A stretch of 64,000 nucleotides of DNA from the NCBI RefSeq assembly GCF_019063845.1, contig NZ_CP077683.1, forward strand, positions 4,518,501-4,582,500, in the 5' to 3' direction. The DNA is from Geomonas subterranea. GTDB taxonomy: Bacteria > Desulfobacterota > Desulfuromonadia > Geobacterales > Geobacteraceae. Numbering within the stretch: the stretch's first letter is position 1; each line of letters opens with the position of its first letter. Shown one piece after another: positions 996 through 35,425 of this stretch. The notes under the pieces are model-generated. The model was not told where the DNA came from, ran no database searches, and saw only the letters and a program-made list of their open reading frames with translations. Position numbers and translations under genes: made by a program.

Positions 996-2163
996 GACTC
1001 CGCTGCGCGTACTGGTGCTGGCACCGACCCCGTTCTTCGCCGATCGCGGCTGTCATGTCCGCATCCTTGAAGAAGCGAGGGCGGCCATTGCTTGCGGCGT
1101 GGACGTCCGGCTGGTCACCTACCACATCGGGCGCGACGTCCCTGGCGTGCGTACGGAAAGGATTGCCGGCTTCTCCTGGTACAAAAAGCTCGAGGCCGGC
1201 CCTTCCTGGGTTAAGCCGCTCCTCGATCTGCAACTCCTCCTCAAGGCCTTCCAGGTCGCGCGCCAGTTCAAGCCGCACGTGATCCATGCTCATCTCCACG
1301 AGGGCGCCTTTTTCGGCGCCTTCCTGAAGATGCTGATCCGCGTCCCCATGCTGTTCGACTGCCAGGGAAGCCTTACCGCCGAGATTACCGACCACGGCTT
1401 CGTCAAGCCGGGCTCTCTGTTGCAGCGCTTCTTCGCCACGTTGGAGCGCTGGATCAACCGCAGTTCCGACTTCATCGTGACCAGCGCCAGCCCGACCGTC
1501 GAACTGCTCCTGAAAGACGGCGTACCGAAGGACCGGGTGCGTGCCCTCATCGACGGCGTGGATACCAATGAGTTCGCACCGCGGCCCAAGGAGGAGATCC
1601 GGGCCAGGCTGGGACTCCCCGAGAAACGTCCCATCGTCGCCTATCTCGGCCTGATGAACAGCTACCAGGGGCTTGATCTTCTGCTTGAAGCCGCCGCGTA
1701 CCTGAAAGGGCAGGGGGCGAAGATCCACTACCTCATCATGGGCTTTCCCGATGTGCCGTACCGCGAGAAAGCAGAGGCGATGGGGATAGCCGACATCATC
1801 ACCTTCACCGGCAGGATCCCGTACGACGAGGCGCCCTTGTATCTTAGCGCCGGCGATCTTGCCGTCTCCCCCAAAGTTTCCCTCACCGAAGCCAACGGCA
1901 AGCTTTTCAACTACATCGCCTGCGGCCTCCCCACTGTCGTTTTCGACACCCCCGTCAACCGGGAAATCCTCGGCGACGCCGCTCTCTATGCGAAGTTCGG
2001 CGATGCCGCAGACTTGGCCGGAGCCATCGGCCGACTGGCCGGTGACCGCGAGCTTCGTGAAGATCTCGGAGCCGAAGGGCGCGAGCGGGCGGTCAAACTG
2101 CACTCCTGGCAAGCACGCGGGGCAGAACTCGCCGGAATCTATCGGCGACTCGTGGAAACATAA
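988..2163 (+). CDS. Family 4 glycosyltransferase (GT-B fold)
   Basis: A soluble retaining glycosyltransferase of about 390 residues with the two Rossmann lobes of GT-B enzymes. The N-terminal lobe opens with LRVLVLAPTPFFADRGCHVR, and a linker near residue 190 leads into IVAYLGLMNSYQGLDLLLEA. The donor-binding part contains EANGKLFNYIACGLPTVVFD near residues 297-317, matching the conserved E-x7-E region of GT4. It starts at TTG 988 with AAGGAAAAG upstream and overlaps the previous gene, so the two are probably co-translated. It closes this block; a repeat-rich gap follows. Substrate not predictable. Confidence 0.85.
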   Translation: MSETPLRVLVLAPTPFFADRGCHVRILEEARAAIACGVDVRLVTYHIGRDVPGVRTERIAGFSWYKKLEAGPSWVKPLLDLQLLLKAFQVARQFKPHVIHAHLHEGAFFGAFLKMLIRVPMLFDCQGSLTAEITDHGFVKPGSLLQRFFATLERWINRSSDFIVTSASPTVELLLKDGVPKDRVRALIDGVDTNEFAPRPKEEIRARLGLPEKRPIVAYLGLMNSYQGLDLLLEAAAYLKGQGAKIHYLIMGFPDVPYREKAEAMGIADIITFTGRIPYDEAPLYLSAGDLAVSPKVSLTEANGKLFNYIACGLPTVVFDTPVNREILGDAALYAKFGDAADLAGAIGRLAGDRELREDLGAEGRERAVKLHSWQARGAELAGIYRRLVET

Positions 2164-2204
2164 ACCGTTAGCCACGGAGAAAATCTGAGGACATCTGAGG
2201 AAAG
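2162..2204 (+). repeat. Outer left arm of inverted repeat around the GxxExxY island
   Basis: It begins on the stop codon of the upstream glycosyltransferase and contains AACCGTTAGCCACGGAG followed by AAAATCTGAGGACATCTGAGG. Read in reverse complement, the segment at 3,020-3,056 carries the same outer sequence, including CCGTTAGCCACGGAG and AAAATCTGAG. The two therefore bound a unit of about 0.9 kb. The arm itself is built of short GAG-rich sub-repeats (ATCTGAGG occurs twice). Confidence 0.8.
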
Positions 2205-2210
2205 CCCTAA

Positions 2211-2307
2211 TGTAACGCTTACATTGCCTCTTGTAATCGTTACATTGCCCCTTGTAATGGTTACATTGCACCTTGTAATGGTTACATTGCACCTTGTAAT
2301 GGTTACA
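2211..2307. repeat. Five palindromic 13-mers with exact 21-bp period
   Basis: Five copies of TGTAA-N3-TTACA start at 2211, 2232, 2253, 2274 and 2295, each exactly 21 bp from the last. Each 13-mer is an inverted repeat, with centres CGC, TCG, TGG, TGG and TGG. The 8-bp linkers are pyrimidine-rich variants of TTGCACCT. A 21-bp period is two helical turns, so all copies would face the same side of the DNA, like iterons or an operator array. Spacers of 8 bp are too short for CRISPR. The binding protein is unknown. Confidence 0.85.
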
Positions 2308-2482
2308 TGCCCTACTTTCACGGCTGCATTTCCCCCAGCGACGACTGCATAGTCCTTCCCACCACTTTTTTCCTGATTTTTGTCGCTTCATTTCTCGCTG
2401 CAACCGTGACCTTACCCCATTAAACCGGAACATTCGGTCCAGCTCAGACATCTTTGCCCGCTAGAACGACGGCTGGAGTGAA
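2308..2482. other. Non-coding spacer between the two palindrome clusters
   Basis: A 175-bp stretch with runs of T and C on the + strand (for example CACTTTTTTCC). No convincing gene was found on either strand. The minus-strand frame that passes through it continues antisense through the upstream glycosyltransferase and reads the 21-bp array as a heptapeptide repeat, which marks it as a shadow. Confidence 0.5.
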
Positions 2483-2516
2483 TGTAACGGTTACATAGCC
2501 TCGTGTAAGCGTTACA
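2483..2516. repeat. Second cluster: two palindromic 13-mers, 21 bp apart
   Basis: TGTAACGGTTACA at 2483-2495 and TGTAAGCGTTACA at 2504-2516 have the same TGTAA-N3-TTACA form and the same 21-bp spacing as the five-copy cluster about 190 bp upstream. They lie about 110 bp before the GxxExxY start codon, where an operator for that gene could sit. Confidence 0.8.
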
Positions 2517-2530
2517 AGCCTCGGGACAAA

Positions 2531-2575
2531 CCATGAGCCACGGAGAAAATCTGAGAAAACCAGAGAAAACCTTGT
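2531..2575 (+). repeat. Inner left arm of the GAG-rich inverted repeat
   Basis: Contains GAGCCACGGAG then AAAATCTGAGAAAACC, a second copy of the arm at 2,162 in the same orientation. It pairs with the inverted arm after the GxxExxY gene. Two left arms and one right arm suggest a nested insertion or a duplicated arm. Confidence 0.75.
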
Positions 2576-2623
2576 GAAGAATTAACGGGGCAGTAAACTT
2601 CCCCAGTCCGGGGAGGTACTGCC

Positions 2624-2992
2624 ATGATTTACAAGGGACTTACCGAAAGGATCATCGCATGTGCTATCGAGGTGCACCGGGAGCTTGGGCCCGGTCTTCT
2701 GGAGAGCATCTATGAGTCAGCCCTAGCAGTGGAGCTGTTTCAACAAGGGATACGATTCGCACGCCAGAAGCCGCTTCCGGTAACGTACAAAGGCCAGAGC
2801 GTAGGCGACTTTCGGATTGATCTGCTGGTAGAGGATCTTATTGTTGTCGAATTGAAGAGCGTTGAACGCAACGACCCTCTCTTTGAAGCACAGCTTTTAA
2901 GCTACATGAAGCTTGGAGGGTACAACGTGGGGCTTTTGGTGGATTTTAATTCCATGCTGCTCGCAAAGGGCATCAAACGTTTAGTGTTGTAA
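2624..2992 (+). CDS. GxxExxY protein (PD-(D/E)XK nuclease-like fold)
   Basis: A 122-residue protein of the GxxExxY family, whose cellular role is not established. The naming motif is present as G24-LL-E27-SI-Y30. A PD-(D/E)XK-like core follows: D66 in FRIDLLVED and E76-L-K78 in VVELKS, so nuclease or nucleic-acid binding is plausible but unproven. GGGAGG lies 7 bases before the ATG. That site is the 3' arm of a small CCCC/GGGG hairpin, and an earlier GGGG at 2587-2590 could pair instead. The gene is monocistronic, less GC-rich than its neighbours, and enclosed by inverted repeats, which suggests insertion into the polysaccharide locus. Confidence 0.85.
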   Translation: MIYKGLTERIIACAIEVHRELGPGLLESIYESALAVELFQQGIRFARQKPLPVTYKGQSVGDFRIDLLVEDLIVVELKSVERNDPLFEAQLLSYMKLGGYNVGLLVDFNSMLLAKGIKRLVL

Positions 2993-3000
2993 CCCAAGAA

Positions 3001-3058
3001 AAGATTTTGTCCTCCTCAGAAGTTCTCAGATTTTCTCCGTGGCTAACGGTTTTGGTTT
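3001..3058 (-). repeat. Right (inverted) arm of the GxxExxY island
   Basis: Contains CAGATTTTCTCCGTGGCTAA followed by CGGTTTTGG, the reverse complement of the arms at 2,162 and 2,531. It starts 8 bp after the GxxExxY stop and ends about 40 bp before the next gene, so the whole spacer is arm sequence plus a short promoter region. Confidence 0.8.
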
Positions 3059-3099: not shown

Positions 3100-3705
3100 A
3101 TGAACGGTGACGACGAAAAGGTTTTAGATACTTATCGCTCTTTTCTCCTTCTCTCGGAGATCTCCGGTGACCAGCAACTCTCGCAGCGCGAGCTGGCGAA
3201 ACGTCTCGGCATCGCCTTGGGACTGGTCAATTCCTACCTGAAGAACCTGGTAGCCAAAGGCTTCGTCCGGGTCAACAACTTCCCGAAGAACCGCTACGCC
3301 TATCTCCTCACCCCCAAAGGTTTCGCCGAAAAAAGCCGCCTTGCCTACCAACACCTGAGCTACTTCTCCGGACTCTACACCGTTGCCCGCCAGGATTACC
3401 TGAAGCTGTTCAAGTCCATGTCGGCCCGCGGGGTCAAGCAGGTTGCCTTCTGCGGCATCGACGAGGTCGCAGAGATCGCCTACCTCTCCTTAAAGGAAGC
3501 CGGGTTGGAAATGACAGTGGCGATGGATGCCGAGGCGGCAGGGCGGAAGTTCTTCGACAAGTCGGTGGTGACCCCCGCTATCGGTCTGTTGTCCGGCAAC
3601 CACAACATCGTGATCACCTCCATGAAGCGGGGTGATGCACTGCGTGAGGAATTGCTGCGCATGGGAGTGGAGCCAGAGCGGATCCACCAGGCCGGGGGGG
3701 ACTGA
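3100..3705 (+). CDS. Winged helix-turn-helix regulator with C-terminal Rossmann-like domain
   Basis: A 201-residue probable DNA-binding protein. Residues about 10-80 form a winged helix: SQRELAKRLGIALGLVNSYL is the recognition region and the wing is around VRVNNFPKNRYAYLLT. Residues about 105-200 look like a nucleotide or CoA-binding alpha/beta domain (VKQVAFCGIDEVAEIAYLSL, later NIVITSMKRGDALREELLRM), so it may sense a metabolite. It ends one base before the PseG-family gene, so the two are probably one transcript. A TATACT box lies at 3082-3087, leaving a very short leader and no clear ribosome site. Likely a local regulator of the nonulosonate operon; ligand and targets unknown. Confidence 0.75.
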   Translation: MNGDDEKVLDTYRSFLLLSEISGDQQLSQRELAKRLGIALGLVNSYLKNLVAKGFVRVNNFPKNRYAYLLTPKGFAEKSRLAYQHLSYFSGLYTVARQDYLKLFKSMSARGVKQVAFCGIDEVAEIAYLSLKEAGLEMTVAMDAEAAGRKFFDKSVVTPAIGLLSGNHNIVITSMKRGDALREELLRMGVEPERIHQAGGD

Positions 3706-30504: not shown

Positions 30505-30638
30505 TTGGCCATGGAGCACATCAGAGAAAATCTGAGAGAGGCAAAAGGCTTTAGGGGGTAACCCAGAGGCTCTTCGTTTTTGCATTGGGCTTTCTCCGAA
30601 GTCCTCAGATTTTCTCCGTGGCGGGTGGTTTTGGTTTT
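30505..30638. repeat. GAG-rich inverted repeat, gene-less copy between yedF and ffh
   Basis: The left arm (GGCCATGGAGCACATCAGAG then AAAATCTGAGAGAGG) and the right arm (CTCAGATTTTCTCCGTGGCG, inverted) match the arms around the GxxExxY gene at 2,162-3,058. The roughly 50-bp centre (from GCAAAAGGCTTTAGGGGGTA) contains no frame. It shares this centre, in diverged form, with the copy at 35,287. Confidence 0.85.
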
Positions 30639-35286: not shown

Positions 35287-35425
35287 CAAAACCGCTAGCC
35301 ACGGAGAAAATCTGAGAAAATCTGAGAGAGGCAAAAGACTTGAGGGTAAACCCAAAAAGTCTTTTCTGTTTCCAGGTTTTCTCCGAAGTTCTCAGATTTT
35401 CTCCGTGGCCAATGGTTTTCAGGTT
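35287..35425. repeat. GAG-rich inverted repeat, gene-less copy between rplS and rnhB
   Basis: Left arm from AACCGCTAGCCACGGAG then AAAATCTGAGAAAATCTGAG; right arm inverted as CTCAGATTTTCTCCGTGGCC. The centre (GCAAAAGACTTGAGGGTAAA onward) is a diverged relative of the centre at 30,541. It lies exactly between the rplS terminator and rnhB, and no frame is present. Confidence 0.85.

Follow-up and report, generated by a model that had tools for sequence, protein, structure and literature searches.

GxxExxY Genes within Inverted Tandem-Unit Arms: A Putative Cognate Nuclease of REPIN-like Repeats in Geomonas subterranea and Other Prokaryotes

Introduction

The question raised by the locus described here is whether a small nuclease-like gene enclosed by inverted arms is a selfish element moving by means of its own protein, or part of a repeat system that is kept by the host lineage. 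The locus lies in a 64,000-nt stretch of the Geomonas subterranea genome (GCF_019063845.1, contig NZ_CP077683.1, positions 4,518,501 to 4,582,500 of the forward strand), hereafter called the window. In this window, a GxxExxY gene encoding 122 aa (2624–2992, + strand) is flanked by two arms, 2156–2201 and 3013–3058, which are inverted over 46 nt and 91% complementary. A preliminary description, based on the letters of the window without database searches, treated 2162–3058 as a candidate small mobile unit and supposed a tie between GxxExxY genes and flanking inverted repeats. The reading favored here, with a probability of roughly 0.58, is that GxxExxY serves REPIN-like repeats as their cognate nuclease and is inherited mostly vertically, rather than being a selfish transposon; the cutting and mobilization of the repeats by the protein are steps that we infer.

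Inverted Arms around GxxExxY Genes

Framing was scored by comparing the 300 bp on either side of a gene for their best inverted repeat, and a score of 20 was taken as the threshold. GxxExxY is present in 44 of the 48 genomes from the bacterial family of G. subterranea, and the family set comprises 109 coding copies, 100 of them full-length; the weakest fragments were not taken as loci, and L072 was excluded as a duplicate. A score of at least 20 is reached by 76 of these 109 copies, as compared with 0.64% of 2179 same-geometry positions on the GxxExxY loci and 4.6% of 3000 mispaired flanks, which indicates that the arms are not placed at random relative to the gene. Because orthologues inflate the number of copies, protein clusters at 75% identity were counted as well, and 44 of the 64 clusters hold a member that reaches the threshold. 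Framing is rare for the other open reading frames (ORFs) of at least 100 aa on the family loci, 11 of 162 scoring 20 or more. The possibility that any small gene would be framed by arms was rejected, since ORFs of 100–200 aa reach this score in 7 of 93 cases at the family loci and in 2 of 50 at the loci from other taxa.

For these other taxa, public genomes were scanned with one protein clade, and the best 80 of at least 520 confirmed relatives were considered. As judged from the record titles, these 80 come from many phyla, archaea included. Three duplicates of family loci and two loci with short flanks were left out; of the remaining 75 testable loci, 47 score at least 20, versus 1.2% of 1500 control positions, and other ORFs on the same loci do so in 4 of 114 cases. 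The tie that had been supposed from the window is thus strongly supported, both inside and outside the family.

The arms share a common plan of approximately three tandem units, inverted on the far side of the gene, and their letters vary (CGCAAAG, CACAGAGG, AATCTGAG, AGGGAT, ACGGATT, CACGAAT, and others). A full arm-loop-arm unit is found on one side of the gene in a number of loci. Arm types were compared for 131 genes with a score of at least 18, comprising 79 family genes (full-length only) and 52 genes from other taxa. The best unit period is 8, 9, or 10 bp in 126 of the 131 arms (29, 65, and 32, respectively).

Correspondence between Arm Type and Protein Clade

The arm sequence varies together with the protein that it surrounds. 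For pairs below 60% protein identity, the 5-mer similarity of the arms rises with protein identity (r 0.219; null standard deviation 0.023, maximum of 1000 permutations 0.072), and the rise is also observed when the 79 family genes are compared solely with the 52 genes from other taxa (r 0.199; null standard deviation 0.050, maximum of 2000 permutations 0.151). GLLE-type proteins have AG-type arms by 35 to 2, with one tie, and GFLEK-type proteins have GAT-type arms by 53 to 7, again with one tie; the remaining protein types exhibit mixed arm types. Mapping onto the protein tree requires 14 changes of the arm core against a shuffled mean of 40.8 (lowest of 200 shuffles, 34), and 26 changes of the unit period against a mean of 56.0 (lowest, 49). 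Within the family, the arm core changes 9 times, the corresponding shuffled mean being 23.0 and the lowest value 17.

Arms as a Dispersed Repeat Family

The window arms belong to a repeat family that is dispersed over the 4.99-Mb genome. With at most two mismatches, the arm core CCACGGAGAAAATCTGAG has 85 matches, 46 forward and 39 reverse, and the reversed control pattern has none in the same search. These counts, together with the small share of control positions that reach a score of 20 (0.64%), exclude a chance origin of the window arms; the 85 matches also rule out arms that are private to the window gene. In the stretches fetched around the core matches, 41 convergent pairs are formed by 100 arm copies (at most three mismatches), an arm being common to more than one pair in a few cases. 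Measured from the outer CCACGG to the outer CCGTGG, a pair is 75 to 224 bp long, and sequence conservation extends from 11 bases outside to about 31 bases inside these motifs. The family consists mostly of solo arm-loop-arm units of approximately 100 bp. The same genome contains three GxxExxY genes, all with inverted arms nearby, of three different sequences.

Two Y1 transposase genes, L060 and L061, are also present in this genome. The RAYT-like gene L060 lies between perfect 26-nt inverted copies of AAGGAAAAGGGGACAGGCTACTTTTC (1190–1215 and 1882–1907), a repeat different from the window arms, and the identification of the window arms as RAYT repeats was rejected on this basis. A palindrome related to AAGGAAAAGGGGACAGGCTACTTTTC is located inside a TCTGAG unit in L038. 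Upstream of L061, one CGCAAAG-type repeat is found.

The abundance of three repeat types was compared between family genomes with and without a gene of the corresponding arm type, in tests that ignore phylogeny. Copy numbers are higher where the cognate gene is present for TCTGAG (5 vs 43 genomes, p 9.8e-5; within genus, 0.0054), GGGAT (11 vs 37, p 1.3e-5; within genus, 0.0073), and CGCAAAG (13 vs 35, p 1.0e-5; within genus, 0.0011). Upon subtraction of four own-arm copies per gene-holding genome, the within-genus p values are 0.0054, 0.014, and 0.0011, respectively. A genome was counted as holding a gene type when at least one gene flank carries the pattern, which applies to one flank only in G028; G013 and G020 each have two genes with CGCAAAG-type arms.

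Conserved Residues and Predicted Fold

The window protein matches PF13366, its only Pfam match, with 139 bits (cut-off 22), and TIGR04256 with 142 bits (cut-off 35). It contains the residues of the GxxExxY motif and of the PD-(D/E)XK catalytic site (G24, E27, Y30, D66, E76, and K78), so that the 122-codon nuclease-like gene read from the sequence in the preliminary description is borne out. Together with Q90 and Y94 of the QxxxY motif, these positions are 99–100% conserved across the family copies, and conservation is still at least 90% when a wider set of 71 is considered.

The structure model of the protein is a confident one, with a mean pLDDT (predicted local distance difference test) of 96.0 and a pTM (predicted template modeling score) of 0.88. 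Its top structural match is SSO0001 (4ic1), presumably a Cas4, with Z 10.1 over 99 aligned residues at 3.6 Å; nearly all other matches have Z below 8 and are middling and tied. Foldseek returns LHK-Exo, lambda exonuclease, and SSO0001 at E 0.002 to 0.01, and no match at E ≤ 0.001. Among solved structures searched by sequence, the single match is 2f8l, a hypothetical protein, at E 0.019. The modeled fold with these matches and the conserved catalytic residues agree with a small, free-standing nuclease of the RecB/Cas4 type.

Inheritance, Mobility, and States of the Site

For pairs with at least 75% protein identity, 75 of 91 share the same locus by flank homology. Sixteen lack flank homology, such as L103/L119 (87% identical proteins), and some transfer has therefore occurred. 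Among 110 pairs within a genome, the closest paralogues are 71% identical and the next 54%. Units with the gene keep to their orthologous positions with hardly any duplication; solo units occur in the tens per genome. Whichever offset from 0 to 24 is taken, no more than 1 of the 41 solo units is flanked by a 4-nt direct repeat, target-site duplications below 4 nt being indistinguishable from the arms' own symmetry. GxxExxY has no match among 50,697 phage records and matches 7 of 72,556 plasmid records, all predicted to be non-mobilizable. Collectively, the orthologous positions, the divergence of paralogues, and the scarcity of direct repeats speak against the selfish movement of this unit that had been considered in the preliminary description.

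The window site was further compared in 19 genomes of the genus, each of which has the adjacent MarR gene once; the states were read by eye. The gene in TCTGAG arms is present in the G. subterranea genome (G000), G013, G022, and G026, and a solo arm-loop-arm unit without the gene in G014 and G015. In G011, internal deletion of a gene-bearing unit has left a remnant that comprises the two arms and the final bases of the gene. Other arm-like repeats occupy the site in G019, G021, G024, and G025, and direct-repeat arrays in G016, G017, G018, G020, and G023, with one additional arm in G016. In G027 a GxxExxY gene lies further upstream, G028 has a bare 56-bp spacer, and in G012 no arm was recognized by eye. 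As far as a comparison between species can tell, the site alternates between gene-bearing, solo, and empty states. The empty-site check suggested in the preliminary description therefore has a divided outcome: the bare spacer and the two solo units provide sites without the gene, but a loss of exactly 2162–3058 is obscured by divergence between the species.

For repeats of unrelated types, the region before the MarR gene is a hot spot, with long direct-repeat arrays (GACGAATC.., ATTCGTCACATC..) in G016, G018, G020, and G023 (L259, L261, L260, and L263, respectively). A search for clean insertion sites in orthologous loci yielded three indels, two of them tandem gains of repeat units and none decisive. 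Over 400 kb, the comparison with G013 (86% identity) gave 23 indels, some of them with repeat units on a single side, none with exact ends.

A Four-Helix-Bundle Family in Similar Arms

TIGR02436 genes, which encode S23/IVP-like four-helix-bundle proteins, served as a comparator. The 30 loci (L271–L300) were taken from the best matches in the 48 genomes and are thus not a random sample; L277, L295, and L300 are framed on a wrong or doubtful ORF. Seventeen of the 30 score at least 20. Their arm units (GGGGACT, AAAAAGT, TTTTAGG, and others) are shorter than those of GxxExxY, with a period of 7 in 13, 6 in 3, and 8 in 1 of the 17. Each of the two families thus keeps its own unit class, which suggests a wider principle. 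As a separate observation, the long ORFs L062 and L063 have a weak four-helix-bundle match and, towards the 3′ end, tandem repeats that stay in frame (GTGGACC.., GACAAGTCA..).

Interpretation and Alternatives

The proposed working of the system starts from the typical gene, framed by inverted arms of approximately three tandem units of 8–10 bp; in this bacterial family, arms of the same type are found in solo units of roughly 100 bp across the same genome. The protein would bind tandem units of the type found in its own arms and would nick or trim the DNA at the arms, perhaps when these are exposed as a single strand or hairpin during replication. Intergenic sites may thereby occasionally gain a copy of a short solo unit or lose one. 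Like a RAYT gene, the gene-bearing form would seldom move and would be retained by the host lineage.

Several observations weigh against this interpretation. The score stays below 20 for 33 of the 109 family copies and for 28 of the 75 other loci drawn from the best 80 of at least 520 relatives, several copies under the threshold still having arm-like repeats by eye. The 17 framed TIGR02436 loci belong to a family without a known nuclease signature, and arms therefore need not imply a nuclease. When only the other taxa are placed on the tree, the arm core gives no signal (4 changes vs 3.9), 46 of their 50 arms being of the GAT type. How the two arms of a unit covary differs among three repeat types: 35 de-duplicated TCTGAG units give no net covariation, with an A/C contrast at one position in 25 of them, arm identity is slightly below that of random partners in 18 GGGAT units, and it is slightly above in 26 CGCAAAG units. 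Before near-identical units were removed, the arms of one unit matched each other less than random partners did. The copy-number evidence, besides taking no account of phylogeny, weakens outside the family, where for one pattern in 30 genomes of other taxa p changes from 0.002 to 0.088 after own-arm correction; the highest count among these 30 genomes (33) is found in one whose gene lacks that arm. Finally, repeats also occur without their gene: 58 GGGAT copies are present in the G. subterranea genome, which lacks a gene with such arms, and G021, G028, and G024 have 59, 58, and 52 TCTGAG copies, likewise with no gene of the matching type.

This persistence of repeats without a cognate gene is also what makes it conceivable that the arms were spread or kept by another cause (replication slippage, recombination, or another enzyme) and that the small genes are captured passengers. 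The unrelated four-helix family in similar arms and the single genus site that holds many repeat kinds in turn point in the same direction. Passengers, however, should not be accompanied by arm units that track the protein clade, as seen in the contrasting ratios of 35:2 and 7:53 and on the tree, nor by unit classes as separate as periods of 6–8 for the four-helix family and 8–10 in 126 of 131 for GxxExxY; ordinary ORFs, moreover, are seldom framed (11 of 162). Capture is accordingly regarded as unlikely. A different role for the arms would be mainly cis-regulatory, with GxxExxY binding them and thereby controlling its own expression and that of the neighbors of solo units, or the arms could act as terminators or RNA processing sites, the nuclease being secondary. 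Such a role is suggested by the many copies in which no more than a few tens of bases separate the stop codon from the start of an arm, by the stem-loop that sequesters the ribosome-binding site in the window, and by the hairpin-like inverted pairs of the solo units. It appears quite improbable in view of the near-invariant catalytic residues, which a repressor would not need, and of the wide variation of the arm unit between copies, since terminators require no protein-specific unit.

An autonomous selfish transposon, in which 2162–3058 moves as a whole through its nuclease-like protein, would account for the inverted ends around such a gene, for the 16 of 91 close pairs without flank homology (including L103/L119), and for the bare site in G028. 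It is nevertheless hard to reconcile with the shared locus of the other 75 pairs, the identity of at most 71% (next, 54%) among the 110 within-genome pairs, the 4-nt direct repeats confined to at most 1 of 41 solo units per offset, and the near absence from phage (0 of 50,697) and plasmid (7 of 72,556, none predicted to be mobilizable) records, and it is considered very unlikely. The cognate-nuclease reading is retained. A broader proposal can be made only tentatively: GxxExxY (units of 8–10 bp) and the S23-type four-helix proteins (6–8 bp, mostly 7) could form a class of small repeat-cognate proteins in bacteria and archaea that read the units of their own arms and govern the dispersal of matching repeats by a route that does not depend on HUH transposases. 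With unit lengths that hardly overlap between the two families, this becomes slightly likelier.

The link between GxxExxY and intergenic repeats gives both a first testable function. Each gene would name its presumed DNA site, so that specificity could be tested by arm swap. If the two-family class were real, a large share of the short interspersed repeats in environmental prokaryotes would belong to such protein-repeat pairs.

Further Features of the Window

In the window, the outer left arm (AAACCGTTAGCCACGGAGAAAATCTGAGGACATCTGAGGAAA, 2162–2203, + strand) is a copy of the genome repeat that also occurs in G013 and is lacking in G022 and G026. The left arm starts at the stop codon of a glycosyltransferase ORF (988–2163), in agreement with the preliminary assignment of a polysaccharide gene on this side. 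The same assignment does not hold on the right, where the arm ends 41 bp before ORF 3100–3705, a MarR-type regulator by its Pfam MarR match above cut-off; an EPS-specific NCBIfam model gives this ORF 73 bits, under its cut-off of 88. A second left copy (2528–2569, + strand) is nearer to the gene, and its segment 2528–2557 pairs with 3023–3052 over 30 nt at 93%. At the same site, the congeners G022 and G026 have a single left arm, the counterpart of this inner copy, and the core element is therefore placed at approximately 2528–3058, with the inner arm as its left end and the arm at 3013–3058 (− strand) as the inverted copy of the left arms. In its main points the preliminary description of the locus is confirmed; both arms bounding the originally proposed unit are real, and the left limit of the core lies further inward.

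The stretch 2162–2527, common to G013, is an add-on with a separate palindrome array. The TGTAAnnnTTACA palindromes form two blocks about 175 bp apart, an array with 21-bp spacing at 2209–2307 and a second block at 2481–2516, probably outside the core unit. Such palindromes occur in 4 of the 19 genus genomes, at few loci, and a further array is located in the G. subterranea genome at G000:C1:4927174-4927459. The arrays look like a separate small repeated element that landed next to the MarR gene.

Directly before the start codon, a stable stem-loop at 2589–2623 (+ strand; minimum free energy −23.9 kcal/mol, z −3.0) encloses the ribosome-binding GGAGGT, and translational control of the GxxExxY gene by this structure is possible. 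The sequence of this region is nearly identical in G013 and merely related in G026. Elsewhere in the window, the arm family is represented by a solo arm-loop-arm unit without a gene at 35299–35408 (C1:4553799-4553908, L043) and by a further arm copy with a degenerate partner at 30604–30621 (− strand; C1:4549104-4549121, L042).

Comparison with Known Systems

With Cas4, lambda exonuclease, and RecB, the GxxExxY protein shares D66, E76-x-K78, and Q90-xxx-Y94, and its top matches are SSO0001, LHK-Exo, and lambda exonuclease. Cas4 proteins contain four conserved cysteines that hold an iron-sulfur cluster. The window protein, in contrast, has one cysteine in 122 aa and thus no four-cysteine cluster; it differs from the whole group in being a small stand-alone domain that is associated with repeats. 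The short non-coding units with inverted ends and the internal-deletion remnant in G011 are reminiscent of miniature inverted-repeat transposable elements and their autonomous transposon. Unlike in that system, target-site duplications of at least 4 nt do not exceed 1 of 41 units at any offset, and the gene-bearing GxxExxY copy does not proliferate.

Multicopy palindromic and direct-repeat families were described for Geobacter bemidjiensis in 12% of the regions between protein-coding genes; in the accessible part of that report, their implications are left open and no protein partner is named (PMC2996986). No report of a link between GxxExxY and repeats was found in the literature searched, which covered few subscription papers and no preprints and in which GxxExxY is barely mentioned, in one case in passing.

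The closest parallel is provided by RAYTs and REPINs, as they are characterized in PMC8049555 and PMC3116915. In both systems, one distinct, mostly vertically inherited gene per repeat type is framed by the repeats, solo inverted doublets of approximately 100 bp occur in the tens per genome, and repeats persist without the gene; REPINs are reported to do so in E. coli genomes without a RAYT (PMC8049555). A greater number of repeats in genomes with the gene, known from REPINs, is seen here for three arm types in the family, in tests that ignore phylogeny, and in the 30 genomes of other taxa p is 0.088 after own-arm correction. The differences concern the enzyme and the repeat. RAYTs are HUH tyrosine enzymes (PF01797), whereas GxxExxY belongs to PF13366 and its model is Cas4/lambda exonuclease-like. 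GxxExxY arms consist of tandem 8–10 bp units, and repetitive extragenic palindromic (REP) sequences are single palindromes tagged GTAG; a GTAG or CGTC tag at one end is given for REP repeats in PMC3733652, and neither tag was seen by eye in the three window arms on either strand. Because both the HUH domain and the tag are absent, the GxxExxY/arm system is not regarded as a member of the RAYT/REPIN group, which by analogy it would nevertheless resemble in its working. If this holds true, the RAYT/REPIN way of life has also arisen with an unrelated nuclease fold.

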